Shown: piece after piece, positions 1,765 through 57,822 of the stretch | Layout: each line of letters opens with the position of its first letter | Position numbering within the stretch: the first letter of the stretch is position 1 | DNA from: Liolophura sinensis | Taxonomy: Eukaryota; Mollusca; Polyplacophora; Chitonida; Chitonidae | DNA length: 64,000 nucleotides | Direction of reading: 5' to 3' | Assembly: GCF_032854445.1 (NCBI RefSeq) | Contig: NC_088300.1 | Span: forward strand, 31,045,608 to 31,109,607 | Notes under the pieces: model-generated | Databases searched by the model: none | Seen by the model: only the letters and a program-made list of their open reading frames with translations | Told to the model about the DNA's origin: nothing | Position numbers and translations under genes: made by a program

Positions 1765-1899
1765 TTACAAATCCAAGAGTAGCACCCGGGGATCTTCTAC
1801 AGCAGATTTGATCTTCCTCAAGAAGAGAACGGCTTCCCGTCCATCCACCAGTCTGTGGTCATAGGTCAGTGCTACATACATCATTGGTCGAATCTCCAC
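1765..1899 (-). CDS. DLST: DLST coding exon 13 (active site and stop)
   Basis: It encodes 44 residues with the catalytic signature [10 protein letters not shown] and the C-terminus [10 protein letters not shown], then TAA at 1767-1765. His and Asp of DHRxxDG are both present. The acceptor is TTTTGTAG. Confidence 0.98.
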
Positions 1900-4800
1900 C
1901 TACAAAATGAGGTATTAAGTTAAAAAAACTGTCAGCGAACTGAACACAAGCTGTCCAACATGCTGTATATGTATTGTTATTTTTACGCAGGTGTTAAAGA
2001 TGTTACAATCACAACAATGGCTGTAAAAATGGCTCTCACATGAGATGTTTGAGTGTATGTATTTGCCTGGAGAGAAACACCACGCCCAATTTCCTAACAG
2101 TCACTAAATCAATCATCCATTCCCCTATCAATAGTGCAGATCAAACATTAACTAAAGATATATCCATCAACAAGACTTCAAACTTAAAAATCTGCAAAAC
2201 TTCGCAAAATTAAATGGCAAAAGGCTCCTTTTTATAACTACACTATGCATTTTTGGTGTGTATCAGATATATTCCAAAATTATTGTCATACTTTTAAAAA
2301 GAGCTTTATTGGAAATATGTCAGAGAATATGTGAGTAAATGTACATTTATACTAGTAACAGTTCTCAGGCCAGTGTCACAAATCCGTCGTAACATGCACC
2401 TGGCGTAGTGTCCATGGCAACATAATACCGAAGACATACTGCACCACGATAAATGAGCGTGATGTATACAGACGATTTTTTTTTTTTTTTTAAGAATAGC
2501 CCATGGTACATGTACCCACAAATCAGCCACAGGTCGGTCAATCAGAGGGTTTACATCCTTAAGCTTTGAGAAGATTAATGTCCAAGTCAAGTAGCTGCTA
2601 TGTATGTATAAAACATACACTGTATATATAGTACAACTGGCATGTCTCCCTCATCAGTAAACACTGTCCTGTTCAATTCTGCATACATCCTAACCTTAGA
2701 TCTTTCGTGTACATGTAACTTTAGGTTCCATCTACGCAGGGCAGCCTCCTTCCATGTCTGACTCAGTCCTCCTGCTTTGGACCCGTTTTTCTCATGGTCC
2801 TCCCATTTTCTGCATCATCCTTTTATATTATTCAGATGTTTGAGGCAACACGATTAGACAGATGAGGAACTTATTAAAGGACATCATGAGTCAATTGAGG
2901 AAATCTTTGACGGGCCATTGGGATTGGGTTTGCAAAATTGATAACCCAATTGATCTCTTCTGTTTATTATCAAATTAACAAACGTGCCCCGAGGGGAACG
3001 GATGGGAAAGATACAAGAAATCTGAATTAGCCTTTAAACATGGGAACAGGCTTAAAGGAATGGGAGCCTGGATAATGAAGCTCATGGGCCTTGGGAGTAC
3101 AGATCTGATCTAGCTCCTCAACTCTGAGGCCTTAGCCTTAAGACACAACTTGAACATCTATACAGGTTCAAGTTTATACGATGCCCCTACTGCAGCCAAT
3201 ATAGAATTACATATACTTATCTATTTTCAGAATTATTACAGAACAAACATGCTTGCCTTAGTACCACATACGCAACCGACAAAAGCTTATAGATCACTGC
3301 AGCGTGTGCATAAAAATTGCCAAAATATTCAATACTTAAAAAGATTCTCTTTGAAACTGATCAATTTAAATTTACTGTCTTAGAGGAGGAAATATGTATG
3401 TCCATATTACACTAACCGATATTAACACCTAATGCCTGCAATTATGTTTAATGTCAAATGTGACGAAATATAAATGCAACATATCACAGAATCTGCTGGT
3501 ACATATATCTTTGATATCAAGCTTGTAAAATTACAAAAGTTGTTTTAAGTATTTTTTTTATTTCAAGCATAAAAAATTAATAGAAATTAAAGAAGCAAAG
3601 GAAATGCAAGAGATTGTTTGGTCACATTTTTCTTCTTTAAACAAAGGAGACCCATGCAAGGTTACCACAAAATATAGACAACACACCTTTTATCTTTTAT
3701 GGCTGAAATGGGTGCTGTGTTGTGCTGCAGACCCATCTCTACACACACGCACAATGCTTGTATAGATGTACATGCCCGTGTGTGGTTTGATAAATTCTAT
3801 TTTATCTCCTCACAGCAGTGGACTGAGACAGAACTTATTTCCGGTATTATGCAGACAAAAAAGCTCAGAATAAGTTGGATGATTTACGCTGGGCCCGGGG
3901 GCAGTTTCTGGAGAGATACAGAGATTATGTGGAGGACAGCATAGATTCAGGATCTATAATAGAGTATGTGCAGAGTGTAAGCAGGATGGGGAGATGGTAA
4001 GATACTGTATTAACGTCATAGACACTGCTTGCACGCTATTTCTTTCAGGGCCAAATAAACTGATCAGTAAGGCACAACGATAACCATTAAAAACCCAGGA
4101 CAGTAATTGGCTTGTTTGCCGGGTTCTTCAGTCTCTGTCCGGAATTCCGCCGTCAAGTCGGGCTCCGCGCCTCAGAACCACCCGACTCCCAGGAGGCGCA
4201 CACACTGAGGCTGAACACTGCGCCTGCCTCGCCCCGGGGATTGCGCAAGACCTCACCGCCTCCTTTATTTCAATCCTAATATCTTTATCATAGTAGCGTT
4301 GAAGAATGGCCCGGGGTGGTGCCAGACTTCGTGGAACCCTGGAAATCTACAAGTCCTCTCTGCCCCAGTGCACCGCACGGTTTCCAATCAATCATAAGTT
4401 TACAACACAACATCGACAGCCAACCAGGAAGATAACAGGCTGTTGAGAAGCCTTTTTTCCTTCTGCACAAATAACATCTTGCTCTGAGTGAAAAGCCAAC
4501 CATAAAGCCACAAGCTGACGTCATTGCACAACAGGATGCCAGCTTCTAAGTAGTCATTTGATTCCACCTAACACATCCTCATACTCTAAAACAACCTTTC
4601 TATACTCCAAACAACCTTTCTATACTCTAAACAACCTTTCTATACTCCAAACAACCTGTCTATACTCTAAACAACCTTTCTATACTACAAACAACCTTTC
4701 TGTACATCAGAAGGCACAGTTGAAAAGCCATTTATCTTCCTGCAAAAATTTGTTTTCAGACATCATGTGGTATAATATTACTGGGTTACGTCTGAACTGT

Positions 4801-19800: not shown

Positions 19801-19963
19801 GAAGTTCAAATTTTTACAACCCAAAAATCAAAATTGAGTTGTTTTTTTTTTGTTCAGGTTGAGTTTATTTATATTTTAAACACCGATTATAAGCTAGTAT
19901 TGTGTTTAATTCCACTTTATCGACCAGTAATTTTGTGAACGCAAAAGTATATATGATATAATG

Positions 19964-20017
<54 letters not shown>

Positions 20018-36577: not shown

Positions 36578-38518
36578 GACAGCGATTTACAGCCAAGGAC
36601 AAATAAAAATTCATGCTAAAAAAAAATACGAAGGGCAGATTGGAAATCATCATCAAAGGATCATTGCCTGTAACATTTTGGTTAGATCTGTTCTAAATGT
36701 AGGATATAATTACATTAAGTTTACAAATGATCAAAACAGAGGCACCATGTGAGAAATCCGTGGACAGTAAATAAAACCTCTTTCGGTCTTCGCCTAGGTT
36801 TAATATTTTTAACGCATCCTGAATCACCAATCATATACCACAGCGAACTGGAAGGCGGGATGCAGAAATGTGAATCTCAAGTTACCCACGTTACGAGAAT
36901 GCACGTCAGTTGTCTAAACTGATACCCATGTATCCTTGCACATGTTTGCAAGCATATTTGTTAAGGTAGTTAGTATGGTTATCGGGATGTGACCAACAAT
37001 GTATTCTACGTTTAATTTGACCTAAAGAGGAGGTGGCGGAGATTTTGGGCTAAATCCTTATTCACTAACAATAATTAACTACGGTACCTGGCAGAATCAA
37101 TTTAAATTTTCTGTGTTCATCAAATATAGCTCAAATGATTATCTTTCAGGTAATATCAGACGGGCTCCTGCACTCTTTGTGGAGTTAAATTGTGTCTACG
37201 GTTTGTTAAAGATAAATTAGAGCGACCAGCATGATAAATTTTTATAAGAAGAACCTTATAACCAATTTTAAACGCCAACACGTACACAGACAAGGCTTAT
37301 AGTAAGACAATGGCAGGGACTGCAACATGGAGAATTTTGTAAATTTTCCATTTACATTAACCACCTAAACTAAGACACAAAACATGCCTTTCATATTTTT
37401 CTTTCATGGCACCATACCCCCATTTCTGACAATTGCTGTGTCAAATCAATCACTGAAAGGTCCTTGTTTGTGTCATTTAAATGTATTTAGCATTTCATCG
37501 GTATAAACTATGATATTGTCATGAAACACATTTGAGGTGACCCAGATGGACACATGTGGATCTGAAGGTTTTAGCCCATGTTGTTGTCTTAGCAAATAAT
37601 TACTTCAATCATGAGTGCTGATAATCTTTTGTGTGTTGTGTTTGACTGCTTTATAAGGGTTATTATGAGTCTTTCATTGTTGTGCTATGTTGAGTATAAC
37701 AGTATAATGTTTATGACATCAGGATGACCCTTAAGAATGGTCTTAAAAGTGTCTCCATTTATTTCATTGGTGCCTAGTGCAAAGGGTAGGGTAGTAAAGC
37801 ATTATTTTCTCATGTCCATGATCCACCTTCTGTAGGTTGTAAAAAAAAAAAATCAAAATATGCAGTGTCCGAGATAGAAGAGCAGTGCTGTTCTCAGGTT
37901 TTACAAACTTGCAGACAAAACACACCGTGGAAAGCAGTGAAAACTCATTTCCACAGCCTAATGGTTGACATGCTTGTCCTGCAATTATAACTCGAGCCTT
38001 GGATATGAAATCTTTACTAATAACAAAGGAAAATGTACATTTGATATGATACATGTGTGTGTGTTGCAGAGTAAAGTTGAATACTCTGAATTATGTTTTA
38101 GTTTGAGCTAATGAGAAAACATCTGTTCTTCTGTGTGCACTACTGATATGGGTTATATCTTCACTATTTTAACCTCTGCGTGTATTCAGATGTAACTATA
38201 TATATTATCCAGTTGGTATATAGGTACATGTAGCTGTAAATTTAGCTATTTGGTATACTGCAGTGGTTACTTCCCTTTGTACCAGCCAGGGAACATGTGT
38301 TGTCATGTGACTAAAGCTATGCCCAGCCCTGAGCTGCAATGAGCTGCACATTTACCTTGAAAAATTTCTCCACTGCCTGGCTATTTACAGAGATTCTTTT
38401 TCTTGCGTCAGCCAAGTTTCTTTCTCTTGTGTTAGCCAAGGTTCGTACATACGTCCCCTGACATGTCTGATGTAAATGTATATCAGATGAACTCAAAGCT
38501 TGTGACTGGCAGTAGAGT

Positions 38519-39600
38519 GTCACATATCACTGGTATGACTGTATAAAGTACGCTATCACATGTAACTGGATGATCTGTTGTGACTGTCAGTATACTGTCA
38601 CGTGATTAAATGGCATGGTGTGACTGTCACTATACTGTCACATGTGACTGGATGGTCTGGTGTGACTGTCAGTATACTGTCACAAGACGTGACTAAATGG
38701 TCTGTTGTGACTCAGTATACTGTCACATATGACTGGATGGTCTGATGTGACTGCCAGTATACTGTCACATGTGACTGGATGGTTTGGTGTGACTGTCAGT
38801 ATACTGTCACAAGACGTGACTAAATGGTCTGTTGTGACTCAGTATACTGTCACATGTGACTGGATGGTCTTGTGTGACTGTCAGTATACTGTCACATGTG
38901 ATTGGATGCTCTTGTGTGACTGCCAGTATACTATCACATGTGACTGGAAGGTTTGGTGTGACTGGACAGTGTACTGTTACATGACGTGACTGGATGGTCT
39001 GATGTGACCCTAACTATACTGTCATGTGTGACTGTCAGTGTACTGTCACATGACGTGACTGGATGGTCTGGTGTGACTGAATGGTATACTGTCACATGCG
39101 ACTGGATGATCTTCTGCGACTGGTTGGTCTGTTGTGACTGTCACTATACTGTCACATGTGACTAGATGGCCTAGTGTGACTGTCAGTATACTGTCACATG
39201 ATGTGACTGGATGGTCTTGTTTGACTGGACGGTATACGGTCGCATGTGACTGGATGGTCTTGTGTGACTGGAAAGTATACTGTCGCATGTAATTGGATGG
39301 TCTTGTGTGACTGTCAGCATACTGTCACATGTGACTGGATGGTCTTGTGTGACTGGACGATATACTGTCACGTGTGACTGGATGATCTTGGGTGACTGGA
39401 AAGTATACTGTCACATATGACTGGATGGTCTTGGGTGACTGGAAAGTATATTGTCACATGTGAATGGATGGTCTTGTGTGACTGGACGGTATACTGTCAC
39501 ATGTGACTGGATGATCGGTTGTGACTGTCAGTATACTGTCACATGTGACTGGATGATCTGTTGTGACTGTCAGTATACTATCACATGTGGAAAACTGATG
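38519..39600. repeat. 42-bp minisatellite, about 25 copies
   Basis: The unit starts GTATACTGTCACATGTGACT and continues GGATGGTCTGGTGTGACTGTCA, with variants and some shortened copies. Each unit contains the 12-base palindrome GTCACATGTGAC and a GTATAC palindrome. It sits about 2 kb upstream of the DLST start. Open frames on both strands here are repeat artefacts. Confidence 0.95.
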
Positions 39601-40559
39601 TGACCATTGATATGATGTCCCACTCAGATTTCATTTTGTAACCGGATGGGGTGGTCAAACGAATACTCCGGTGTCGTAATGCTTGGTCTGTCAGTCTACA
39701 TTTTTTCAAAAAACTGTCTATTGAAGACCTAGATCAAAGTTGTACTGCATGGACACTTACACATGTGTAGGTGCTGAGAAGATTCCTTTATTTCTGTTCT
39801 GTGACCTTGGTTAATTTCTTTCACATTGTTGGTTACAAAAATACATTTAATTCATGTTTTGCTCAATATTGTAAGCATCATATGTCTTGAAGTTGTGAAT
39901 GAATTTTCATCAAACATGTACCACATGTGCCTCTGTTGTTTTTCATTGACCCTGGCCTCTTCAAGGTAAATGGGGTCATTGAGGTTATATTTTGTAACAG
40001 GCCTGTAAGCACAATATCACAAGCACCAGATGTGCTCTTGTACAAGCACGCTGTTGTTTTTCAATGAACTTGACCTATTGTTTCAAGATAATTGGTCCTG
40101 CAGCTCCATTTTCCTGCAAACTTTTTGTCTCTTGAACCCTTGTAGCCAAGCTTATCAGACCTATACAACATAAACATATAGGCAGTAAGAAGAATTGCTT
40201 GATTCTTCTTTGTGACCTTGGCTTATTTTTGAAGGTCATTGGGGGTGAATTCAGTTATTTATCAACTTTGACCTGGTTTTTTTATGTCATTGGCAGGTAC
40301 CTGGAAACATAATGTCTCCATGGCAACAGTGCTTATAGCTAGGGGTATTTTAGTGCATTGCTTGGTAGTTCTCTAATTCTTGATGAAATTTTTACCTTAT
40401 TGTGAACTAACATTATGTTTATAGTAGGAAAAATTTTATAAATGTTTCATAGACAGTCAAAAGTCACTAAGCAAAAATTTAATAAGTTTTTTTAACAGAA
40501 TGGTAAAGCCAAAATATGCCAAACATGTTGAATGATTAGCTAGCTATTTATTGGATGAA

Positions 40560-40816
40560 GGGGCCTCCTTGGCTCAGTTGGTTAGCGCGCTAGCGCAGCC
40601 TCTCACCAGGATCCTCTCACCAATGTGGTCTCTGTGAGTTCAAGTCCAGCTCATGCTTGCTTCCTCTCCGGCCGTACCCGGTGGGAAGGTCTGTCTGCAA
40701 CCTGCTGAAGGTCGTGGGTTTGCCCAGTTCGCTCCCACAATATTTGCTGGCCGTCGTCGTATAAGTGAAATATTCTTGAGTACGGCGTAAAACACTAATC
40801 AAATAAATAAATAAAT
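40560..40816 (+). mobile_element. tRNA-derived SINE, full-length copy
   Basis: Plus-strand copy. It has a tRNA-like head with A box TGGCTCAGTTGG (40570-40581) and B box GAGTTCAAGTCC (40636-40647), a body, and an AAATA-repeat tail. A short duplication follows the head. No clean target duplication was found. Confidence 0.92.
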
Positions 40817-41882
40817 ATATTGGTAGAATGATGTGCTAAATAAGGTTGTTGTCACTGATTTCATGGGACCCCTAATTGTTGTGGTTAAATGTGAACTGTT
40901 TGTTACACCAAGAAACATCCTTCACCATTAATCCTATACTAGCTGAAGAACTGCGTAAGTCCATGTTAATTCTCTGCAGATCTAAAGGTGATTACCTTTG
41001 TCCAGTCTGAGTCTGTAATTTGATATTGATGAACATCCATGGCATGTCGTCAAACGTCATAAATTAACAAAACTCCTGCACTCCCCAAAGATGCCGCCAT
41101 GGGGGCTGGTTACGTATTTCTGATTAAGGACCTGATTGGTATGGGGTGCGAAGAGGTGTTACATAATGTTAAGTCGAAGAGATGATGGGAGTCAAGGAGA
41201 CCGTTGAGTTTAGACAGGTAAGTTATTATCCCTGGCCATCTCTCAACTGTCGTCATTGGCTATATTGATGGCCCTTCTTGTAGGCAGGTGATAATGAGCA
41301 ATTAGTCATCTGTAATATCAGTAAGATTTGTCAGGCTTGCTTGTCAGCAGATTACTTATTTATGCTATGCTATCTATTTCCTCTTGCTCCACTCCATCTT
41401 GCTAATTTTCCCTCATAGCCTGTCTCTCCCCGTCATCCTGCTCTCTCCGTCTGTCTCTTGCCTCTCGAGTCTCACCCAAGACGGCTAATATCACCAATGC
41501 AGGATAACCTTTGATATTATATAGTCTTATAGCTGACTCACCTGTTATTGGCCCAGGTAAAAATCCTAATACTCTATATATACGTAGGTCAATAACTCTC
41601 TTAATCATTTTGTGGGTGGGTAGCGTTGCTGTGGGCATGCATGTCCAGCCTTTACATACACTGTTGAGACAGGAAGGTCAAATTTTTGAACCAGACATTG
41701 TAAATATTTGTATTATTTTTTAGTCTTGTGATTCAACCTTTAAGGAATTGTATTTTGTACGCATGGTCATGGCTGGGTGTGTAGCATTAAGCATTAATAC
41801 TATAGGCCCATGAGATTTTGTTAGTGTAGTATTACAAAGGCATTTCACCATAAATTAACTCTAAATAATTATTGACATACAG

Positions 41883-42058
41883 TAATTCTTCAACCTTTGC
41901 ATATTTGCAAGGTTTTTATTCAGTCATATTCTGAGAACATTGTTTTGTGTAGACTGACAAAATTATACTTTTTGTGAAGTCCTGAAATTTGTTAGCCCAA
42001 CCAATGTAGTTTTCTCACTGAAAATTTGCTCTTTTATATGTGAAAAGGTTGAGCAATC
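41883..42058 (-). mobile_element. inverted-repeat element, family A, copy 4
   Basis: It starts TTCTTCAACCTTTGCATA and ends TGAAAAGGTTGAGCAATC, an inverted pair. The interior GTAGACTGACAAAATTATAC is the reverse relative of copies 2 and 3. No coding capacity. Confidence 0.78.
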
Positions 42059-42462
42059 AGGGTAGTCTAACTCTAACTTCTTGCGAATTAAGTTTTCAGT
42101 AATTAAATTAGCCTCTAATCTATTTTAAAACTATGATATTCTTTTGTTGGAAATGTCCATATGTATTTTACTGGTGACAAACAAACAAAACATATGGTGA
42201 TAATTTCAGCATAATGATGTGTACATTTCTTTATATAATTATTTTTGAAAAATACTGTTATTTGTAATATAATGCTCAGAGGTTGCTTATATATTAGTGG
42301 ATTATTACCAATATGTTACTAATGGGACAGAAAATTGTATTAAGTCCTAATTATTCATTAGGGATTGAAAGCTAAATAAATCAACCAATAAACCATTCAC
42401 CCGGTCACTGTTAGCCATGTTAAGAAAGAAATATCATAATTTTTTGTTTTGTGTTTCTGAAA

Positions 42463-42735
42463 TACTGTATATAAGTATGATATGTAAAAAAAAAGCATTT
42501 TTAGAAGCACACCAAAGCTCTAAATGATGTCTCTGATGCCAACTCTTAAGTAACAGAGCTTGCCTGATTCTGATTGATTCATCCATCTTATAGACTCACT
42601 TGAGAGGTTTTTCTTATTGTGCAGTTTGATTAATTTCTTATCATAAAAAAAAACTGAAAGTGCATTTTTATATACCAAGCTTTTCGTGAACACGAACACG
42701 AAGTTACATGCCATACATTATGTGAAATACAGTAA
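42463..42735. mobile_element. inverted-repeat element, family B, copy 3
   Basis: The left end near TACTGTATATAAG and right end near GTGAAATACAGTA are inverted relatives. AATTTCTTATCATAAAAA in the interior is the reverse form of the family B core. Confidence 0.6.
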
Positions 42736-44407
42736 TCAAACTTTACAAAAAGTGCCTTGTTAAGGTGGACAGATTAATAAGGATATAGAAAAATTTGTCA
42801 TTTGAAAAATACTAAACTTTGGACAGATGAAATGCAGTGATTATGAAGCCTATACCCTCTCAGTATCGTTCATCAGTTTACGACATTTATTTTCTTCTAA
42901 AAGTGCAATTTTGGGGGCAAAACATGGTTAGGTTTTTTTTTTTAAGAGAATTTTTAAGAACAGTCTCCTAGAGTAGTTTGTCCTCCTTGTAGATGTTCTG
43001 TGAAGAGTTCAGTTGTCTAACTCTTCTGGCTCCTTCTCCTGTCTCACAGTTTGTCAGTGTCTCTAACAGAACTAGACAGGTGGTTTGGCCTAATCACATT
43101 TAAATAGGGAGTAAAACTACAGGCTGAAGGCCACTTGGATCCCCTTAGGGGGTACTGTTTTAGGAAGTCTGTCCTTTGTGATCTGGGTTATATATGAGGT
43201 GTGGAGGGAGGGCATGGGGTAGGGGGGTTGGGGTGGGGATCTGTGTAGCCTAAAGGAATCTGATCTTCAGAGGATTCAAGAAGTCAAACTGTTGTGATGA
43301 GAAGTGGTAGGTGGCATAGGTACTGATGAGACCCACCCCCCCCCCACCCAACAGATCACCCAGACAGGTGCAAGACAGTTGACATTATACGGTAATAATG
43401 AGTATATAGTATCATGTGTTTTTATCTGTGAATCTCCTGTGCTCATCAGTTAGTGTCATGCTAGAGTGGTTTAAGTTAGTCCTATAACCTGGAAGAAAGA
43501 AAGCATTTATAAATGTAATAAATGGTATTAAAATAAAAACATTTAGTATTTCAGAAATTTAATAATAATCTTGAGAGGAATCGTAGTGAAACTCATTTTA
43601 TTTTTTCCAGTGTTTAAAACCTTAGACTATATTACACTTGCCAAAATGAAGAATTGATGTTTGTTTGTTTTTTGTTAAATTTGGCTATAAGAATCATATA
43701 AATTTGCATGAATTTAACCATGAAGCTAAATTGCATTATTTAAATATTAGTTTTCTTCAAGATTTACGGAACTAAAGGTAGATATTATTCAATATTTACA
43801 CTACAAGGATGTAGAAAATTGAAGACTTCCTTCCAAGTCAAGTGTGGTTTCCTTGGTTATGGTTACTCAACAGTTACGTGTATCTACACCTGGAGTTGTA
43901 TAATAGCAACCTGAATCCGCATATATGTATTGTCTTAGCATGGCCACGTATTTGTGTGTGACCGGCAGAAACCTGATCAGTTAGAGACTATGGAGATCAA
44001 CACGGACAAAGGCTAAAGATAATAGTGCTCTTGAGCTCAGCAAGATAACAATTACTTAGATGTTTGTGTTACTTGAGCGAGAGAGGAGAGCCTGTCTTTA
44101 GACAATCAGGGGACTTTACACCTGTGCTGATTTTGAACCAGCGATCTTAGATATCTTAACACTTCAATTTCAACTTTGTTTTATAGGCTAAGTGCAGAGA
44201 GACAAAAGGATGAACACTCGATCTTACAAGATGTTTGATTACAGAAATGGTGCATTGAAAGTTTAATAGTGCAGGAAGTCAGAATGTAGGATTTCAGTTT
44301 TGCTCCACTTAAACTTTTATAACTTAATTCATTTTGTATAATATGAAAAGTGATTTTAAAATGTCATAATGTGCTTTTAGATTATAACATGGTGTAATGT
44401 AATTGAT

Positions 44408-44486
44408 ATTTTATTTATTTATTTAAGAATTTATTTATTTATTTATTTAAGAATTTATTTATTTATTTATTTATTTAAGAATTTTT
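44408..44486. repeat. TTTA-type tetranucleotide repeat
   Basis: Interrupted runs of TTTA repeats separated by AAGAATTTATTT, a low-complexity tract. Confidence 0.9.
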
Positions 44487-45175
44487 CATGTGGACTTAGC
44501 AGCTGACATAAATTTTATTGACTAACTGCCGTGCAAAGTTTATTTAGCATGTGTAGGTTTCAGAATAGAATATTTATTAAATGAATTTCCATATAATTGA
44601 CAAAATTCATGTAACAAAACATTCTTGAGCATGGCATTATACATCAATCAAGCAAACAGATATTCAGAAATAAAAATTTAAAGATTTATCAACCATTATT
44701 TGTCAGTTGTTATAGTTGGTAGTAAGAGACATGAAACACTGGAGATGCTTGTATGTTTGGAAATTCTTTAAATACTTGATGCTGTCATCCATAGAATCTC
44801 GAAACGTTTGTGTTCATCTCAGTGTTACCAGTTTAACGGCTCCTGGTTGGAATATACTGTATTGACTATTTTCACATTATTTTTAAAATTATGCCATGTA
44901 TATCATAATTACCTTGTCTGTAAGACAGACAGATTTAGTAAATTTGTTTGTTGTATGGGAACAGTAATGAATTTACTCACATACATGTAAAAGTATATTT
45001 AGAATACTGAGAGCATTGCTTTTATTGATTAGGGTAGTTAGGAGAAAAAAACAGCCTATCATAGTACTCATTAGGCTTCCATGCTTTGTCAGCTGAAGTT
45101 GTTTGGGAGAGTTTTTTATATATAAATAATTGCACAGGCAGCCTTGGTTAGGGAAGACAAAGTATTGTCTTATCT

Positions 45176-45433
45176 TTAGCATTTCTTTTCCAACAAAAGT
45201 AGATTTTCTCCAGAAAACATCTGTTTGGGTTTGACTCGTTCTTCACCTGGCCATTGTCTTCTCCAGGGACATGCATAAATAATCCAGCCAGTAGCTGGGC
45301 AAAACTTTCCTTCAGGTAAATCAGCTACCTTTATCACAAGAGTAATGAATCTTTGATCTTTTATGACAGATTTAATAGTGATCGGCTGGGCTGTTGTTCT
45401 AACCAGGCCGAATCCTGTAAGATCTATTGGCGC
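45176..45433 (-). CDS. orphan exon-like open frame, family unknown
   Basis: On the minus strand a good acceptor (TTTAATCTTTGCAG) is followed by 85 codons ending in TAA (45178-45176). The first part, APIDLTGFGLVRTTAQPITI then KSVIKDQRFITLVIK, alternates like beta strands. A donor-like AAG|GTAGCT follows, so the true exon may end there; beyond it comes VADLPEGKFCPATGWIIYAC. I do not recognise the family and found no partner exon. It could be the last exon of an unseen gene, a gene fragment, or chance. Confidence 0.3.
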   Translation of the reverse strand, partial: APIDLTGFGLVRTTAQPITIKSVIKDQRFITLVIKVADLPEGKFCPATGWIIYACPWRRQWPGEERVKPKQMFSGENLLLLEKKC

Positions 45434-45489
45434 CTGCAAAGATTAAATGTCCTGAAGACATGTGCTTGACAGGCGTGCAAAAAAATGTG

Positions 45490-46000
45490 GGGGGGGGGGG
45501 GGGTGGATATGGTTGATAAATAAAAAAATAAAAAGGGAGATCATTTAATATAAGGCTTGATCCAAAGACAATAGATCTGCCTCCCATCAAGTCATCTCAG
45601 TGACAACAGAAAAGAAAGCAAGGGAGAAAAAGACTGTCTGACAATAATGCAGGTGATGTTGTGAGCAAACTGCCCCAGGCTTTACCCCCCTACACAAATA
45701 AGTGTGCCCTTAACACATTCTTAATGGGCCACCTTGACCATCTGCTGCCCTTTGTGGCTTGACCATGTCCCTCTCAGCTGGACTCTCAATAATATATGTA
45801 TTGAAGTGACCACAGAGCTAATTACTGTGTTAATTGCTTGTCTTGGACCTAATCCCACTACCTTGTTACATGGACCCAACAAAAAGACAGCTACATGTAT
45901 CTAAGTCAATAACAGTAGTCTCCTTGGACTGTGGGATGGGGTGGGGCAGAAGGAGGGTGGGGGGTGTTGGTGTGTGTGTGGTGGGGGGGGGGGGGGGCCC
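45490..46000. repeat. G-rich low-complexity tracts
   Basis: A poly-G run near 45490-45503 and a G-rich stretch with a second poly-G run near 45940-46000. G-quadruplex formation is possible. The sequence between them is unremarkable. Confidence 0.7.
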
Positions 46001-47269
46001 AAGTCAAGGTGAAGGTGATCCTATAGACTGCACACTTAACATGTTACAACAGCTACCATTCTGTCTGACAAACACCTTTAGATGGCTTAAGCATTAACCT
46101 ATGGAATTCTTTATGCTCTTCTATTTAACCCTCAAGGTGAACTGCGAATAGAACCATTGGTCAAGAATGCAGTAAACTGTAGAGAGAAATGTATAGGCCA
46201 TTATATGTAAACAATGGCACCATCTTCTCAGTATAAACAGTATTTCCTCCTTTGTGAAGTCCCTTCTAATCTAATTAAATAAGAGAAGAAAGAAAGTATT
46301 TTGTAAATATATTATAGCTTTTCCCCTGCCTTCTCTGTTTCTTCTTTTGAAGAAGAAGAAATGTAAATGCTGAACTGTTTTCTCAAAATATTTTCTTCCT
46401 TGACGTCCTGTTATGGTTTACAGTTCATATATATAAGGTTAAATCAGACTCATTTTGCCTCGGTGTTTGTACCAGTAAATAGTGATTAAACCGCAGTACT
46501 TCAGCCTGGGAATTACGCACTAAATTTCTTGTAACAACAGCAGGGGTAATTTCTCATCAGAAAAAAGGCCTTATTTTGATTCACATCCTGGAATACATAG
46601 CAGGCTTTCTTGTAAGTGGGTGTATTGAATGTATCCTGCTTCCCACCTAAGCTAACTTAAACTGTTAGGTGTAAGTATAATCTTGACAGTTTCTACAGGA
46701 ACACGGGCGTCGGACGTCGTTTATGTAAGAGCTGTGATAAACTGCCTTATTGTATGATTGACAGTTGGCCAGAGCTGGTGTACATGGACATCAGATAATC
46801 AGTTATAGACTCAGCAGCATTCCCCATGGCTCATCAACCCTGCAGGGGGAACAAGATATGGGGGGGGGAGAGATCAATGCCACTGTTTATACTAACCCAC
46901 CTTACTCTTTCGAGATGTGTCAAAAATAAAGAGATATGTCTTGAAGAATTAACACCATCTTTGACATTTTTTATTATTTTTGTCATTGTTACTTCTGATT
47001 ATCTTCGCAAGTTATATTTTTGATTTTAAAGTATCTTATGTAAAAAGTGAAAATAATTCTAGACAATAGTTTATCAGTCTTTAGGAGTGTATGCCACTTC
47101 ATTTTTTTTTTTTTTGTCACCATTACCAATTCACAGTAACACCAGATTTATGTTTGTAATGACAATCATATATATATGTACATATATGTGTATTGTATTA
47201 TTTTCAAGCATTAATCTAAGCACAAAGCTAAAATGTCTCCAACTCAACGTCAGATTTTATGCCAGTATG

Positions 47270-47420
47270 CGGGACGGTTTGGCAGTAACCTGCGAATGGC
47301 CATGAGTTTCCCTTGAGCTTTGCCGGTCTCCTCCATCATAATGGTGGACGTCATCATAGAAGTGAAATATTCTTGAGCATAGCATAAAACACCAATGAAA
47401 TAAATAATTACATAAATAAA
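47270..47420 (+). mobile_element. tRNA-derived SINE, old 3' half
   Basis: A diverged plus-strand copy from CAGTAACCTGCGAATGG through GAAATATTCTTGAGCATAG to AAATAAATAATTA; head missing. Confidence 0.8.
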
Positions 47421-48479
47421 CAAAATTAGATGCAAATTAATGATATTTGATAAAAAAAAAAGCTAGAAAATAAAGTCACAGGGATTTATTTTGAAAGGTT
47501 CAGGCATGAATGCTTATGAAATGTTGAGTGTTTTAATCATCAGAAAGTCAGACATTTCATAGTTGTAAGACTCGGACTTGAAAGAATGTATGCTCCTTCA
47601 AATTATTAAAATATCTATTTCCTGATTAAGTGTAACAGAAATGCTGAAAGTTGCTGATAGTGGTAAATTTACAATACGCTAGTTCAACTGTTCCTTGATG
47701 CCGTTTGTGCTGACTGTGTTTGTTCCTGGTAGAGAGCCTGTGTGTGCAAACACACGTATGACTAAGGGTGTGAACCTAGTACCGCTATTTGATTATCAGA
47801 CTAACACAGGATTCACCTCCTCAGATCAGGTGTTTGGTTGGCATGGCTTGTTAGGGTATGCTGGTTGAAGTCAGGAATTTAAGGGTGTGTTGTTAGGAAA
47901 AGCAATGTTAACTAGCATATAGCTATCTTGCAGTGGGTTGTTGTCAGTGCGTGCACTCGTTCTGAATTTAATAATACACATATATATGTTCCCATAATCT
48001 TGTATTTATTTTGTCTAAAAGGGAAATTTAAATTTCGAGAATTTAACAGATTACTAATATTGTCTATCAGTGAAAATTTATGTCCCTGTCCGCACTCCAT
48101 CTTTTTATGACATTATCAGTATTAAAATATGTATTTATAACTGGACATCTGAATTATGCTGTAGCAGTGTAGTATCCCAGACACAATGAACAGGTCTATT
48201 GCCAGTCATATAAATTTGATTGACACGAATGTTTATGTTATAATAGCTGACCCTTATCCCATCTATCTGTGTTAAGTGTTCAAGCAGGGGAGAGTATGGT
48301 GTTGCCAGGGTGTCCTTTGCCTTCAGTGTTAGAGCTGCAGACCCCACCAGCCAATGGCATGTCAGCTGAGGCAGGCCTCACACTGGGCTGTTAGCCATCT
48401 CTACCTCACAACTGGAGACAGTTTTCTATGAAACATCTGTCTCTATTGTGTTTTTACTTCTGATGAATAGATACACCCT

Positions 48480-49005
48480 CCCCTTCCAGGCTAGAGAATA
48501 GACAGCACTTCCACAGCCTGTCAGCATGCCCCAGCTTGAGACCACCACATGACAATAGCTCAGCGGCTAGGCAACGCCCACTTCCTAGCTCTCGGCCAAT
48601 CAGAGCAATGTCTTGGAGAGGCTCGGCCAGTAGACTTCAGGGAATCTCTAGTACTTGTAAGAGAGGCCCAGTGAGATCTGAAGGACAGTAGAGCCAGCCT
48701 TTAGAGAAGAAGCCAATGCTGTATAGGGAGGGTGTTGTCATTTTATACCAACTGACAGTGGAAATAAGATCAGGAATCTAACCCCTATGATTACTCTATC
48801 AGCCAGCACAAAGACTGTGAACAAGGACAGTAGTGCTGCTTACAACAGTCTTGCCTGGCCTTGGTCTTGAAGCGAGGGTTGCTGTAGCTTATACTACTGT
48901 GTCCCCAGCAGCCAGCCTCTCATAGTACAGTACCTCCCCACCCTAGAGCTTCTGCTGCTCTCTGGCCACCAATCAGGAAGTTGTCTGGGTAAGGGACTAT
49001 CTACT
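48480..49005 (+). promoter_or_regulatory. Prox 5' leader or promoter-proximal region (tentative)
   Basis: This is more GC-rich and repeat-free than the sequence before it. The frame of the Prox ATG is open back to a TGA at 48868-48870 with no earlier ATG, so at least the 3' part is likely 5' untranslated exon. The transcription start and any upstream non-coding exon cannot be placed. Confidence 0.4.
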
Positions 49006-51042
49006 ATGAGAGAGGAGGGTGATAGAGTTGAAGTGTCTCATTGTCAGCCGGCACAGCGAGACATGAAATTGGGTGGAAGCTGCAGGGCAGCAGATGAGGG
49101 AAGTCCAGTACATGTACAGACGGATAATAACAACAAGTGTTCCATCGTTGCCGGACCACAGACAGATAAACTGATCAGAGAGAGGGTCACATCTCCAGGT
49201 GTACCTCCTAAACACTGTGATAAGCTCAGGGCAGGGCTTCCTTCGGAGACATCCAAACTTCTTAAGGACATACTACAGCAGAAAGACAAAAAACTTCGCG
49301 AAAACAACAACAGCTTGAAGAGTTTTATGGTGAGCCGTGACGGTCAGGATAACAGTGATTTGATAGCTCAGCTGCTGAAGAACAACCCTGGTTCTCACAG
49401 CCACTCATCCATGATGGAGGAGAGGGAAAGCCTGAGACTTGGTACCCAGGTGGAGAGCGAGAGTGACTCGGATAGGGACAGCTACACAGAAACCTGCCGA
49501 TTTAACGGTGACGAGGATTTGGGTGACACCATGGACTCTGAGATTAAGGATGGAAGCTGTGAAGACAAACATTGGAGTTCTGATAACTATGACTTGATGG
49601 GACAGTCAGGCAAGGATGGAGACAGTATGGAGGCAAAAAGGGCAAGGGTGGAAAATATCATCACCAGTATGCGTCCCTCACCCTCGGGCTTAGGGGGTGA
49701 AGTGGGATCTCAGCTGTCACCAGACATGAGGAGACCGAAACGCAAACAGTACCAACCACAGCAGCACGACTCCAAATATGTCCCACACTCTTCGAGTAAA
49801 TATCGCAAACAAGAGGAGAGGGATAAGCTCAAGGAACAGTTAGAGTTTGTACAAAAAACATTACAACAAATGCAAAAACAGTATGTGGATTTATTCGATG
49901 AGGAAGAGAAGGAAATTGCCCAGTCAGACGTGAAATCGAGCAGAGACAGTAAGTACTTTGACTTCTTATCAGATAAGTTATGTAATAGAAAAGAGGAAGC
50001 CGTGGTGTGCAAAAATTTGAATTTTAAACCTTCAGAAGTTGAGAGTAGTGCTGCGGTCAAGCAAACAGCCAGATCAAACTTTACTCAGGACTCAGGACAA
50101 AATACAAAAGACTCTGGAGATATGTTAGAAAAGGACAATTTTACTGAGTTTGCCAGTTTGCTTAAATACAAAATAGCTGATGCTGTGGCAAGTGCTATTG
50201 ATGGTGTCATGACAAAGTTCAGCCACACCCAAGTGAAGCCCAAGAAAAATGAGATTCTTAGCCCTGCTAATGCTGAAGTGGTGGAAAAGGAAAATAAGCC
50301 AGTACATGTGTCCCCCCGCCCCACGGAAGTGCTCCCCCAGCTTACAGAAGACTCTTGTCCCGTCTCAAATCTTAAAGAAAAAGAACAGAATTCCAATAAG
50401 ACACCAAAAGTTAGCGACAAATCAGAGAGATTGGAGAAATTTGACAGGTTTGACCACAAGTCCTTCTTGGATTCGCCCATAAGAAGTTTTATGGACTTGC
50501 CACGAGGGCACCATCACCCCCACTTGCCAGCCTACCCTTCCATGCCCTTTTACTTGCCCACCCAAGTCCACCACCCAAACCCGCTTGTGTTTGGGGTGGA
50601 ACCAGAGCAGACAGAAGCGTTGCCCTTAGTGGTCAACACACCCAAGAAGAAAAGAACGAAGGTGACCGACACCCGCCTGTCGCCCCGCGCTGCCCGTGTC
50701 TTGCTGCAGGAGAGTGTCCCCGTGAGTAGCCACAGCGACATGGGACTGGGACGCCACTCTCCCTCCTCTTATCCTCACATGTTCCCCATGCTACCCACAT
50801 CTGTGGCCATCCCTAACCCAGGCCTACAGCACTCAGACTTTATGAGGTTCTACGAGGAACAGGTCTTCAACAACCACCACCACGAAGGCCCCCAGTCCAC
50901 CACCCATTCGCCCCTCCATGCAGACCAGGGCTCACCAGGTGCCAGCCACATATCCGCCTCCGAGGGGGCGCACCTGTCCAATGGCAAGCGTGAGCGGGAC
51001 TCCTACAGTCCAGGAGATTCATCTTATGACTCCTTCCACATG
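49006..51042 (+). CDS. Prox: Prox coding exon 1 (679 codons)
   Basis: The ATG at 49006 has A at -3, is the first in its frame after the TGA at 48868, and is the chosen start. The exon ends DSSYDSFHM at 51042, where coding-like sequence stops abruptly and the AT-AC intron signal begins. The long regulatory N-terminal part is Ser/Asp/Glu- and His/Pro-rich. Antisense frames here are by-products of composition. Confidence 0.94.
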
Positions 51043-54000
51043 ATATCCTTTTTATGGTTTATAGTTGTTTTACATACATGTATGACTTTAATTAAGTGTA
51101 CACTTGTTAATGTACTTCATCACATGTACATTTTGCCAGTGCTATCAGAGTCTCTTGACGATAGCCCAGATATGGTCAGTATAAAGTCACTGACAGTTAT
51201 CTGTGATATCAGCATATCTTATTCACGCTGTTAGTGCAGGTTTCGTGTTAAGTTCTAGAATTGTAAGCATTATCTAAGAATGATCCAGATTTACTTATGC
51301 ATGACTGTGTAGGTATTTTAAGCTATATACTTATAAAGTCTGAATATTTTCATGTCGTTAATTTGAATATAGTGGAAAACATTCATTTCACAAGTTCAGT
51401 GTCACTCACACACAATTTGAAATTATTATGGGATAATTTCCATGTTATTTAGCTGGCCAGACTATGACTTTGCAAAATATGTTGGTTATTAATGGACTTA
51501 ATTTTTTCTTTTTCTCACAATATTTCTTCTGTAGAATTTTCCAAAGAGAATTTCGTACATGTTTATATTCAGTGTTCATCCAATTTATTTTTCAATAGTG
51601 TGTGTCTTTAAATTGAATTTTTTTCTTCACCTTATTGTTCGTTTCCTTGGCGGTCATTTTTTTCCCAATTTTTACTTTAGCTTTTTTTTCTCTCTGAAAA
51701 CATTTTTTGTGGCAGTTATTGTTTGCCACAAAGTGGTTGGCAGCACTCCGGACAAAAGCTTTCAGAAACACTCTTAATTACAATTCATATTTTGGTTTCT
51801 TGAGGGTGGGGGACTTGAGCTAAGAAAGGTTGCCATGGCTTTGAAACACAAACACTACAGTTCTTTCAGCTTGCCTGTCTCTAAGTTGCTGGGAAAGTGT
51901 TGGCCAGACTTGAAAATGTTCTTTATAATTACAGCTTTTGTGTCTAATGGATGTTTATGTCAGGGAGCCGGGTCCCGATAATTGACTAATTTACTTCACA
52001 CGTTAAAGAGAAGAGTCCAGTGTCTTTTGAGATACGTTCAAGTAGCAATTTCCTGGTGCGTTATCGGCCACACCACTGCCACCTAACTGCTTGATTTCCT
52101 TCTTAAGTCTATCAACAATCAGGCTGCTGAGAACAGAGCCTGTATAAATAGGAAGGTAACACGAGAATCACATTAACATCAGAGAGGCTCTGACACCTGG
52201 CCAATGCCGATGTGCATGTCTTGGATGATGCCATTCGGGAACTCGCGCTAAAAATCCATTTTCAGCTCAAATGAACATTTTCCATAAGTCCACAACATAA
52301 AGAAGCCTTGATTTCTTACCTTCGGAGTGCCGGCCCAGAAAGCAATGGCTCAATGTATTGGCAGAAAAATCAAAGCTGTAGTGTAACGCTAAATGGATAA
52401 AAACTTGATTAAGGTAAAATTGTGCCGGCTGAAAATACCAGGTAATAGGCTTAATGGGCATTGATCGAGATAATGGGATTTTTCCTTTCATGGAGAGAAA
52501 TAATCTTTACAGAATTACCATCCATGCATAAAAGAAATCAAATCTTGTGCGACAGTGTGCGGGTTTTAATACCCACAATGTAAACCATTATTGTCCTTAT
52601 GACTACAGCTTTGGGCTGGTCTTTGATGTAACAGAGAACTTACAGGTAAAAACTAGATATGCCCTACCTTAGGTCTGGCTACAATTTTTATTGTTTTTGT
52701 TGATTTTTTTCTTAGTCATTTTTGTGTCACATTGTGTTAACGGATTTGTCTTCATATTGGGTTAAATTTTGTTGTCAGTCATTGGCCTGTCAAACTTAAT
52801 GAATTCATAGGCTCTTTTTTTTTTTTTTGGACTTATTTTTTTTCTTTCTCTGCAACCTTAACCTTCTGCCGGTTTCTGACTTTGAAACACCGTCTTTGTC
52901 AAAGGTAAAAAAAAATTTAATTAGCAAGATAGATTGACTTTCAGGTAACTTAGGTGGGGAGCGAAGCGTTACCTTATGAGAAGCGGTGGGGAACATATGC
53001 CCCCATTGTTGAGCTGTGTCAGGAGTGTGAATAGATCTGCCAGCCTCCTTAAGAAGATTGTCAATGTGATAGAAACCTCAAGGGCTTCTTTCACAATATG
53101 CCCTCTTAAGATCAGCCCCTTTAAGATTGCAGATATCATCAAGTCTGCCCCAGGGGCATTTGATTGGATAAGGCCAGGTATTGTGGGTGCCTGACTGGCC
53201 TTAAGGCTGCCCTGCCAATAACGATCGCCCTTTATTAGCTGCAGCAGGGTGGAAGTTTGCCCTAAGAGACTAAGGGGGGCTAGTTAGTGAGGGAAGAGGG
53301 TCTGATCAAAGTTCTGGAGACTGGCAACACTGTCCTAACACAATGTCACATTTTCTAAAGGACGAACAATGAGGTGTCAAATCTCCATGGCCTGGACAGT
53401 TTAGTGTGACCTGCCTTTAACACCAGCAGGGAGTTGTTACTTTATGTAGTGTTCTTCAGGCCTCATTACCCCTGTGGACAGGTGGTCTGTCAACACCTCT
53501 CTGTGAAGAGGGCCACAGAAATAGGCTGGGGAATGAAATCAACTTTAAATCGATGCACCTTTTAAGTTAAAATCTGGTTTTCCCTTCTCTCAGAAGTAAC
53601 CAACTTCTGGGAATACATCAGTTGACACATAGTATTCAGGATCCTTTAGCATCTATACTTAAAACTTTTTATTTGTTGTATTTACTCTTAGTTTATTTTT
53701 TTATTAACAAGTCACTTTCTTTACACTTACTTTGGCTGAAAAGAGATCCAACAAAAATACTCTTTGTAGTAATGAAATTTTTCCACTGTGAAAGGTACAG
53801 AAAAAGACATTCTAAAGAGGAGAAATTTCACTAAAGCGGTGTTAATAAATAATTTAGTATGTAACATAATGAATGAGCCTCTTAGTAATAGGCCTGCCAA
53901 ATGTTTTCCCTGATGTGCCAGTTTTATAAGTTTTATAAAGCCATTTACCTGTTAATTTAGAAACAATCTCTGGTCTGTCGGGGCTAAGGAAGGAAATCAG

Positions 54001-57000
54001 AACTTCTTCTTAATATTTAACCGGGGCCTCTGTGGCTCAGCTGGTTAGCGTCCTAGCGCAGCGTAATGACTTAGGAGCCTCTCAGCAGTGCGGTTGCTGT
54101 GAGTTCAAGTCCAGCTCATGCTGACCCCCTCTTCGGCCATGCGTGGGAAGCTCATCCAGCAATCTGCAGATGGGTTTCCCCCTGGCTCTGCCCGGTTTCC
54201 TCCCACCATAATGCTGGCCGCCATCGCATAAGTGAAATATTCTTGAGTACGGCATAAAATACCAATCAAATAAATAAATAAATAAATAAACAATATTTAA
54301 CCTTGGCTATTGAGAAATAGCCATCTGAGCTGGCTGATATTGACTGATCGGCCAAGATGAGTGGCATTGTTAAAGAATCAGTAGCCAACCACTACTGCAC
54401 CCACACAATGAAGTTATAACTCATAATTTTCTATATTTGACCAACTTTAATTTTCTGGTAGACAAAAGTATCAAATATCTCTAGCTACCAATGTCTTTCT
54501 ACTTCTTATTCCTTTTAATACCAGATAAAGAAATCCTATAATAAATGTTGTTTAAATTTACTAAAATATATCTTTATTTGGAAAGGTCTGGAAGAAGATG
54601 CTCCACATATTATGCGCATGGATATCTTGACATTGTGATTTTAGATTATTTTTCTGGAGTTGAATATGGTTTTTGGATTTAAGAATAATTTTACATTCGA
54701 TCATTCTTGACATCTTGTGCACACAACTTAGCAAAATACAGTTTAGATTGTAGTGGGTATGGGTGTTGACGTAAAAAAGGAAAAAATGCACATATGTTTG
54801 ATATTGATTGTTTTCTGCTTTCGTTTCCGCTGGCTGGCTTTCTCACTGTGGACATCAGGCAAGCTGTGACAGTAAGGTAGAAGGGCTGTTGACAAAAACT
54901 CTTGTCTTCTATAGAATTTTGTTTGAGGTTAGTTGTGACCATTGTTTTTTCAACACTGCCTGTCCTGGTAGGACAGGAGCCAATGGGAGAACAATGGAGG
55001 ATAGAGAAGGAAGGGCTGTTTACTTAGCTATGGATATAGCATAATATAGACATCCATCAGAGCTTTCTGTGAACTTTTCGCCATACCTATCACCAGTGAC
55101 TAAGCTGGAGAATTGTCTGATTGTTGTTCCAAAGCAGACAGATGTTTTGAAATTGCAAGAGAGGTAGAAATAATTGAGGGAGAAAACCCAACTGACTGTT
55201 ATGAGAAATCACCTGGCTGGGTTCTGATTGTTTGTCTTTCGTTGGTAAAAACTATCTCCCAGTTATTCCTGTCTTTTGATACATGACATTTGAGAATGAC
55301 ATGGAAATGATCAGCAAACAGTTCAGAACAAAAGATAACAGACTTGTTTTGAAAATAGTTACATTGACTCATCTTCCACATAGGGGTTGATAAATACCCT
55401 CATTTACATACTGACATTTGTTGCCCGTTCCAAAAGATCTACCAGTATTTTTTCAACAGTTTGCCATTTTGGTTTACTTTCTTGACAACTTTAAATTAGT
55501 TTTTGTGTTCTTCCCTTCAGCAGTTTTATTAACCAACAAAGATCAGATACTTATATATATATCTTATATTATTTCTATCAATGTTTTATTCTTCAAAGAA
55601 AAAAAAATTTAAATTGTGCACAAATACAATTATTTAAATCATTGTATTTGCGCTGAAAATTTGCCCCAGGAAGAAGTGCATTTTTAAATGCATAAAATAT
55701 TACTTTTGGTGATATTTTTCCAGTCACAGACATGTGTCATCCTACCCTCCACAAAACACTTTTTTCAAATTTATTTTGTTGTTCCTACTTATCTGAGAAT
55801 CTTTGTGACTGTGGCCATGATGCCAACAGTTATGAAAACAAGCACATAACATGTAGCTTTCTCAGCAAGCATGCATAGGCATGTATCATTTGACATTTCT
55901 TTCTCCCTAATCCATTCATTTACTTGTGGACTGACATGTTCGCAGACTGGAAGCATATTGATGGTATATTGGATAGAAATTACTTATTCCCATGCTGTCT
56001 TAACCATGATGATAAAAGTCCCATCTCGGCAATTAATTGCTGATGGTTGTAGATAGGCAAGCTGGCTAAAGCTCTCCATAATACCAATCTGTTCATGTAA
56101 TATGTATAGAGTGGACAATCAATTAACTCTTCCCCTATTGACACTTCATGGTTTTCGAGAGCCTACACCTCAGCCTTATTTCGCTTTCCACTGAGCTCTC
56201 TGATGAAGGAAATATTTGATTGGTATCGCTGTCAACACATGCTGACTACAGGGTACTCTTTAGTTCAGTCATTTGTTTGAATCTAATACCGAAATACGTA
56301 GCCATCTCTTGGGCCCTTGTCCAATCATGCTAGAGGATAGCCCTTCTAATCGGAGTAAACAAATACGACGGCCGGGGAGTATTGTCTCTTTTCACTGTAT
56401 CTTTTTAATATCTCTCCTGGCCGGACGTATTCATTACCTCTGATGTGCACACAATTAATCGCTCATCATTCTGCGCCTATCGTTGGTCGCTCTGCCAAAA
56501 GCTGCATCCTGCAGAGGACTGGCAAGTGAGGCGAGTGTTTAACTGGTCTCTGGAGATGGCGCCCTCTCCCCTACTCTATTACAGTCGTCTCCCCTCTCTA
56601 TCTGTTTGTTTGAGGGCTAACCATCTCTCCCAGTAAGCCATTGTTACCCCAGCGGCCGTTCTAATTGAATTTTGTTTGGTTTAGCTAATGGTTCAGGCAG
56701 GAAAGAAATATTTCTGAATTTTCCATGAATAGATGAGAGTGTGTGAGAAATGAGGAAATCTCATAAAAAAAAAGAATGTGCAAAAAAAAAGAATTAAGAG
56801 AGAAAAAGTGTGTGATAAGTGATGATCTGGTCAAACGGTTGTATTCTCTTGTGGAAGGGAGTATTGAGCAAAGCATTTGCTTCTTAATTTGTGGGGTTTG
56901 GCGTAAGCTTACAAGCGCGGACAACATAATCCAGATTGTGTCCGTTTCTCTTTCTGACCTGTCATGTTCCCTGTTCGGGAATATTCATTGGGCAGTTCAC

Positions 57001-57822
57001 CATGCCTCCATGCACGGTTAGCTCAACAGCGCAGCAGGAAACAATGATGACAAAATTAAGAGAATTCACACTAGCTTTCAGGCTTGCACGCCGGCAATAT
57101 TTGCTGACTTCTTCAGATCCGTCCCAACTGTTTTAGCAACAGTGCAAAATAATTTCTGTCTTCTTTTGTCTGCTTTGGCCAGCCCGTCTTGTGTAAACAA
57201 ATATAATTATCCAAATTCAGTTACCAGCTGAAGATCGTCTTGGAACATAAAGATGGATGTCTCTTACTGGCTGTTTGTGTAGTCATAATTATGAAGACCT
57301 AATGAAGCCACATTGTGCTAGGAGCTTTTATCGCGCCTTTATTGACATTACTAGATAGCACTATGGAGAATTTTATTTTAATAGTGTAAACATTCTTCCT
57401 GGGAAATTGTGTAATCATGTGAAAGTGCCTTGTGTGATAATGTCCATCATTGCTTTCATTATCAATCTACTTATTAGGTTCTGTATTCATGTATACAGTA
57501 TACAAAATTTTAATACAATTTAATTTTATTTCCATTTTTTTCTTCCTAACAAAGAATTGTCTTATCGCTCAGATAACATTTGTGAAAAATAAGTTAAGAT
57601 ATAGTGTCGCATTTTTCTATTCTTGGTGTATGAAGTCAGATTTAGATATGACCTTAACCATTATTACACCAGTACTCTCACACCAATGCACCTACGCAAG
57701 GCCAAGCTGATGTTTTTCTTTGTCCGGTACCCAAGCTCGGCCATTTTGAAGATGTACTTCCCTGACATCAAATTCAACAAGAACAACACAGCACAGCTTG
57801 TCAAGTGGTTCAGTAACTTTAG
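49006..57822 (+). CDS. Prox: prospero/Prox homeobox transcription factor (partial, 3' exons beyond window)
   Basis: Prospero-family proteins are nuclear regulators of neural and other cell fates that bind DNA through a homeo-Prospero domain. Join seen: 49006-51042 and 57668-57822; 730 codons plus two bases, then more exons past 64000. Features in order: LLKDIL and QLLKNN (85-127), KRARVENII (211-219, nuclear-localisation-type), RRPKRK (242-247), coiled coil (about 268-305), [18 protein letters not shown] (385-402), QTEALPLVV (535-543), PKKKRTK (546-552), then the homeodomain start [16 protein letters not shown] and KWFSNFR. The order matches vertebrate PROX1/2 and Drosophila prospero. Homeodomain residues ([16 protein letters not shown]) are closer to the insect than the vertebrate form. 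The remaining Prospero domain is not in the window. Confidence 0.97.
51043..57667 (+). other. Prox intron 1, U12-type AT-AC intron (6.6 kb)
   Basis: It starts ATATCCTTTTT, a perfect U12 AT-AC donor, directly after ATG of SFHM. It ends with a branch site CCTTAAC (57652-57658) about ten bases before the terminal AC (57666-57667). Removing it joins HM to [10 protein letters not shown] in phase 0. No GT-AG pair I tried gives a better in-frame join. The intron also contains the SINE at 54023 and complex non-coding stretches (about 52200-52500, 52915-53230, 56290-56660). Confidence 0.85.
54023..54291 (+). mobile_element. tRNA-derived SINE, full length with 11-bp target duplication
   Basis: AATATTTAACC occurs at 54012-54022 and 54292-54302, exactly flanking a 269-bp plus-strand element. 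It has A box TGGCTCAGCTGG (54033-54044), B box GAGTTCAAGTCC (54101-54112), a body, GGCATAAAATACCAATC and an AAATA-repeat tail. This is the best reference copy of the family in the window. Confidence 0.95.
57668..57822 (+). CDS. Prox: Prox coding exon 2 (homeodomain)
   Basis: It encodes 51 residues from [15 protein letters not shown] to KWFSNF plus two bases of an Arg codon, covering most of the divergent homeodomain with the recognition helix near the end. The donor is TTTAG|GTAAGT. The next exon should begin with the end of Arg and EFYY-type residues, but it is not before base 64000. Confidence 0.97.

Follow-up and report, generated by a model that had tools for sequence, protein, structure and literature searches.

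The window, i.e., the whole stretch of 64,000 nucleotides analyzed here (C6:31045608-31109607, where C6 is its chromosome, representing 13.5% of the assembly by length), carries DLST on the minus strand and Prox on the plus strand in a divergent, head to head arrangement, with start codons located 12,429 bp apart (Table 1). An earlier note on this DNA had described a complete DLST facing Prox across 12.4 kb with nothing firm in between. Joining of the exons confirmed this arrangement, with the qualification that Prox itself is incomplete in the window, which holds only its coding exons 1 and 2; the outer limits given in that note also agree with ours, as position 1765 is the end of the DLST stop codon and position 57822 is the end of Prox exon 2. 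In line with the same note, six-frame Pfam scans of the stretch between the start codons found no protein family at E 0.01. Neither a tRNA (ARAGORN) nor an Rfam match at gathering score was found in the whole window.

Table 1. Positions of the DLST and Prox features (window numbering) and of the best loci of the probed families on C6
Feature	Position	Strand	Basis
DLST coding span (exon 1 predicted)	36577-36484, 26826-26755, 23886-23812, 22762-22707, 14708-14600, 14265-14003, 11260-11163, 10256-10058, 6781-6698, 5693-5526, 1899-1765	-	exon joining
Stretch between start codons, 12,428 bp, without recognized protein family	36578..49005	.	six-frame Pfam
Prox coding exon 1	49006..51042	+	open frame, exon joining
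Prox coding intron 1, AT-AC, U12-type signals, phase 0	51043..57667	+	read from DNA only
Prox coding exon 2, start of Homeo-prospero domain	57668..57822	+	Homeo-prospero domain match, exon joining
Prox exons 3 and 4, past the window end by about 5-11 kb	68599-68743, 74686-74871	+	exon joining
Vasohibin	C6 67.6 Mb		best family locus
Presenilin	C6 17.05 Mb		best family locus
IRF2BP	C6 38.9 Mb		best family locus
LIN52	C6 0.93 Mb		best family locus
Fcf1	C6 17.3 Mb		best family locus; second family locus on C7, not distinguished from FCF1
ALDH6A1-like	C6 0.91-0.92 Mb		exon matches, each under the whole-protein cut-off; weaker family matches on C1, C3, C7, C8 and C11
MIT-plus-kinase gene, RPS6KC1/L1 type	C6 14.07 Mb		MIT match and same-strand downstream kinase domain

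Structure and identity of the two genes

The DLST gene is complete in the window, and its 11 joined exons encode 450 amino acids, from an ATG at 36577 to a stop codon ending at 1765. GT and AG borders were present at the expected sites for all 11 exons; exon 1 (36484-36577) and the splice joining it to exon 2, whose acceptor is weak, are predicted from the reading frame and from a start that resembles a mitochondrial leader. The protein contains Biotin_lipoyl (one lipoyl domain) and a succinyltransferase-type 2-oxoacid_dh domain (Pfam), its closest relatives in the PDB are DLST chains (best E 3.7e-173), and it was identified as DLST (2-oxoglutarate dehydrogenase E2) as it is nearer to the succinyltransferases than to the other E2 types. 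Genome-wide, TIGR01347 gave 16 rows, and the five in the window, including the four best, are exon matches of this one DLST gene. A DLST leader sequence matched the plus strand at 41273-41335 in tblastn (E 0.58), but this match contains an internal stop and was dismissed as chance.

The DLST introns are long, i.e., the gene spans 34.8 kb for 1.35 kb of coding sequence, with introns 1 and 4 measuring 9.7 kb and 8.0 kb, respectively. A dispersed repeat with frames of an LRMVVGFP type is located within intron 1 (34524-34991, minus strand), and the same type of repeat recurs at several places in the flanks of the pair.

Prox, which has roles in nerve, lens and lymph development, starts with an ATG at 49006 and is encoded on the plus strand by four coding exons, separated by three coding introns, which give 840 amino acids in all. 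The joined protein contains the full Homeo-prospero domain (HPD; Pfam, E 2.8e-81), and its three PDB matches are prospero and PROX1 chains, the best being 1xpx, protein prospero. When the HPD model was compared against the genome (609 Mb in 632 contigs), three matching places were found, all of them exons of this Prox gene, with gaps that could hide others.

The first coding intron lies where the homeobox starts and, as read from the DNA, has AT-AC ends with strong U12-type signals at the 5' end and at the branch site. Its 5' end (ATATCCTTT) directly follows the methionine codon preceding TSTLTPMHL, a branch-like CCTTAAC is located at 57652-57658, i.e., 9 bases before the next exon, and its 3' end is AC. 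Together with the full HPD, this intron marks the gene as a member of the Prox/prospero family. AT-AC, U12-type introns are reported in passages on fly prospero and human PROX1 (PMC2831892, PMC3564746), and one at the homeobox start is stated for all vertebrate Prox genes and for Drosophila prospero in a section of PMC2956630. The AT-AC intron is an expected retention, which strengthens the identity of the Prox gene and not the adjacency to DLST.

Flanking genes and wider linkage on C6

On the 3' side of DLST, the nearest recognized gene is a plus-strand glutamate carboxypeptidase II-like gene with PA and TFR_dimer domains, which in window numbering lies between approx. -56.5 and -37 kb. The flanks were covered by candidate frames chosen with a filter trained on DLST and Prox, which may have missed genes: on the DLST side, a Pfam scan of 37 of the 41 frames closer than -39 kb gave TFR_dimer, i.e., that of the carboxypeptidase, as the only family, and in the approx. 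49 kb beyond Prox the 31 frames scanned (out of 44) gave no Pfam match and no gene was recognized. The wider vertebrate block around DLST and Prox is not kept here.

The genome was probed with seven families that have members in the human regions of PROX2 or PROX1, and the best locus of each was recorded; VASH1, PSEN1 and IRF2BPL are genes whose human positions we take to fall within these regions, and the other families were chosen from the human and turkey gene lists (PMC8319724, PMC8470100). The best locus was on C6 for all seven (Vasohibin, presenilin, IRF2BP, LIN52, Fcf1, ALDH6A1 and the MIT-kinase), and the probed genes are scattered over the chromosome from 0.9 to 67.6 Mb. The C6 count of the MIT-kinase is our own assignment, as the MIT search gave ten matches with the best on C8, two of which were read for a kinase, and the C6 gene was picked because a kinase follows its MIT domain; scanned alone, this MIT domain scored 26.6 against a cut-off of 30 bits. 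A three-gene ancestral block with an RPS6KL1/RPS6KC1 homologue next to DLST was considered and, with two of the ten MIT matches read, was not supported, as the C6 kinase gene is 17 Mb away. Within this RPS6KC1/L1-like gene, at C6:14083934-14085500, a stretch resembling a kinase exon (CDWWSLGALLYELLVGRVSIDGITGYSEV) occurs in many head-to-tail copies, which looks as though part of an exon had turned into a minisatellite.

As controls we used the MCM and Cpn60_TCP1 families, whose human genes presumably lie elsewhere than the PROX2 and PROX1 regions, with the exception of CCT3 at 1q22. With exon rows grouped into loci by us, 3 of 8 MCM and 3 of 11 Cpn60_TCP1 loci were on C6 (together 6 of 19). 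Set against the seven of seven probes, this gives P = 0.0026 (one-sided exact test), with LIN52 and ALDH6A1, which are neighbours, not independent in this count. With 13.5% of the assembly length, C6 holds 6 of the 19 control loci, i.e., the controls are themselves enriched on it, and a shared chromosome is therefore weak evidence.

LIN52 and the ALDH6A1-like gene appear to form a second ancient pair, which is also divergent and belongs to the human segment that contains PROX2 and DLST. ALDH6A1-like exons were located on the minus strand of C6 from 924,961 down to 912,210, with the first exon lying beyond those located, and the frame of EKLDRASPDLWPE, which we take to be a LIN52-like motif, starts at C6 933,575 on the plus strand, just ahead of the match to the LIN52 model. 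The recognized coding parts of the two genes are thus head to head and less than 10 kb apart, and ALDH6A1 and LIN52 are also consecutive in a turkey gene list (PMC8470100). Two pairs of one human segment hence seem to survive on C6, while the other probed genes scatter over 67 Mb.

A separate observation on this assembly concerns the contig C99 (108,685 bases), on which cox1 was matched seven times (one match being partial) at a spacing of about 15.5 kb; these repeats probably reflect misassembly of a circular mitochondrial genome. Judged by eye from the open frames, cox3-nad3-nad2-cox1-cox2-atp6 are on one strand and nad5, nad4, nad4L, cob, nad6 and nad1 are on the other, an order that we take as ancestral for molluscs (chitons, vetigastropods and octopus) and by which the animal looks like a mollusc.

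Origin and retention of the pair

The earlier note had named human DLST and PROX2 as neighbours at 14q24.3, and the two indeed follow one another in a published table of risk genes from this human region, which reads LTBP2-ISCA2-AREL1-FCF1-YLPM1-PROX2-DLST-RPS6KL1 and, being a list of risk genes, might skip others (PMC8319724). A turkey table contains the run LTBP2, AREL1, FCF1, YLPM1, PROX2, DLST and RPS6KL1 (PMC8470100), a mutant mapping interval on zebrafish chromosome 17 is described as containing two open reading frames, i.e., prox2 and dlst (PMC4335124), and PROX2 and DLST are listed together for pig SSC7 (PMC7998181, PMC12730100) and are both included in an unordered list for salmon (PMC6786245). 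The PROX1 locus is given as 1q41 in a passage of PMC2211742. The vertebrate adjacency is thus already visible in published tables, and we do not claim that an invertebrate instance of the pair is absent from print. Within the open-licence literature, no paper was found that places a DLST-Prox pair in an invertebrate, the papers found on PROX2 and DLST were by title all human or other vertebrate work, and none was found that combines at least three of RPS6KC1, RPS6KL1, PROX1 and PROX2. Human PROX2 is presumably on the minus strand and DLST on the plus strand, i.e., the two genes would be divergent as they are here.

Gene structures, adjacency and a chromosome shared with other genes of the human region were observed directly in the present genome, and the vertebrate adjacency is taken from the papers cited above. 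Orthologues of DLST and Prox adjoin in lineages that are far apart, and no gene is recognized between them (the vertebrate side coming from published lists), as expected of an ancestral microsyntenic pair. As the pair occurs in what looks like a mollusc and in vertebrates, protostomes and deuterostomes both include animals with these neighbours, which agrees with the proposal of the earlier note that the pair predates the protostome-deuterostome split, with one invertebrate genome compared. We infer common descent of the adjacency, and it is very probable that the divergent pair goes back to the last ancestor shared by protostomes and deuterostomes and has stayed intact here and in vertebrates, a reading whose invertebrate side is a single genome.

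After the vertebrate whole-genome duplications, Prox would have been kept twice (as PROX1 and PROX2) and DLST only beside PROX2. The further proposal, in which the original neighbourhood was kept by PROX2 and not by PROX1, holds in part, i.e., DLST remained beside PROX2, but RPS6KC1, the paralogue of RPS6KL1 (the next gene after DLST at 14q24.3), still seems to accompany PROX1. Both vertebrate Prox copies therefore appear to be what is left of a single duplicated block.

As for why an inherited pair should have stayed together, a small genomic regulatory block is about evenly balanced in our judgement and slightly the likeliest mechanism. Putative distant Prox control elements would be spread over the intergenic stretch and the long DLST introns, such that breaks between the two genes would be selected against and DLST would be a bystander. 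Pairs of a developmental target and a housekeeping bystander are described in passages of PMC5722932 and PMC8851819 (the main text of the latter does not mention DLST), and DLST and Prox would fit this profile. It is possible, though less likely than not, that the block is bilaterian in the stronger sense, i.e., that DLST introns with putative Prox enhancers have held the pair together since before the split and that the region beside PROX1 represents this block after the DLST exons were lost.

The adjacency may also have been neutral and have survived simply as breaks are rare, a sub-case of common descent that we regard as a real possibility, somewhat short of even. The Prox control elements are putative, and ALDH6A1 and LIN52, neither of which is a developmental regulator comparable to Prox, likewise seem to have been retained as a divergent pair of the same human segment; this argues against the need for a regulatory block and makes a neutral survival of DLST-Prox possible as well. 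On the other hand, the dispersal of the probed genes over C6 indicates that gene order has been much mixed, yet DLST and Prox survived as neighbours.

It is highly improbable that DLST and Prox instead became neighbours twice, once in this lineage and once in vertebrates. A shuffled meeting becomes likelier as C6 is rich in genes of this linkage group, and the comparison includes one invertebrate genome, but with about 3,000 genes assumed on C6 two particular genes placed at random would adjoin with a probability of only about 2/3,000, or lower if one orientation is required, which makes a convergent meeting improbable. A shared bidirectional promoter, which the head to head placement would allow, is unlikely and the least probable of these explanations, as the start codons are too widely spaced to suggest one promoter, unless the gap is narrowed by untranslated first exons.

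If the pair is ancestral, as the inherited arrangement favored here implies, it can serve as a landmark when Prox orthologues are assigned in other animals than vertebrates, it points to a single ancient neighbourhood from which both PROX1 and PROX2 are derived, and it narrows the search for very old Prox control elements to a short stretch.

Comparison with known Prox loci and ancestral gene pairs

The AT-AC intron at the homeobox start is common to this Prox gene and to vertebrate Prox genes, and the three coding introns match the number given for zebrafish prox1b in a section of PMC2956630. Human PROX2 differs in that its intron is listed with AT-AA ends (PMC2211742), as compared to AT-AC here. 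Drosophila prospero shares the AT-AC homeobox intron, and the fly intron has nested U2 sites, which are said in a passage of PMC3564746 to date from early insect evolution. The Homeo-prospero domain is 81% identical to a sequence of Drosophila prospero over 157 amino acids. In Drosophila, pros and CG5214 are presumably both located on 3R.

Compared to the vertebrate PROX2-DLST loci (human 14q24.3, pig SSC7 and zebrafish chromosome 17), the same two genes adjoin. The vertebrate lists have YLPM1 before PROX2 and RPS6KL1 after DLST, whereas here the glutamate carboxypeptidase II-like gene is the nearest one recognized past DLST and the RPS6KC1/L1-like gene is at a distance of 17 Mb. Conserved ancestral microsyntenic pairs and genomic regulatory blocks have reportedly been described by Irimia in 2012 and Kikuta in 2007. 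DLST and Prox resemble these in gene position, in that a developmental transcription factor is located beside an unrelated housekeeping gene and both are kept together across distant animals.
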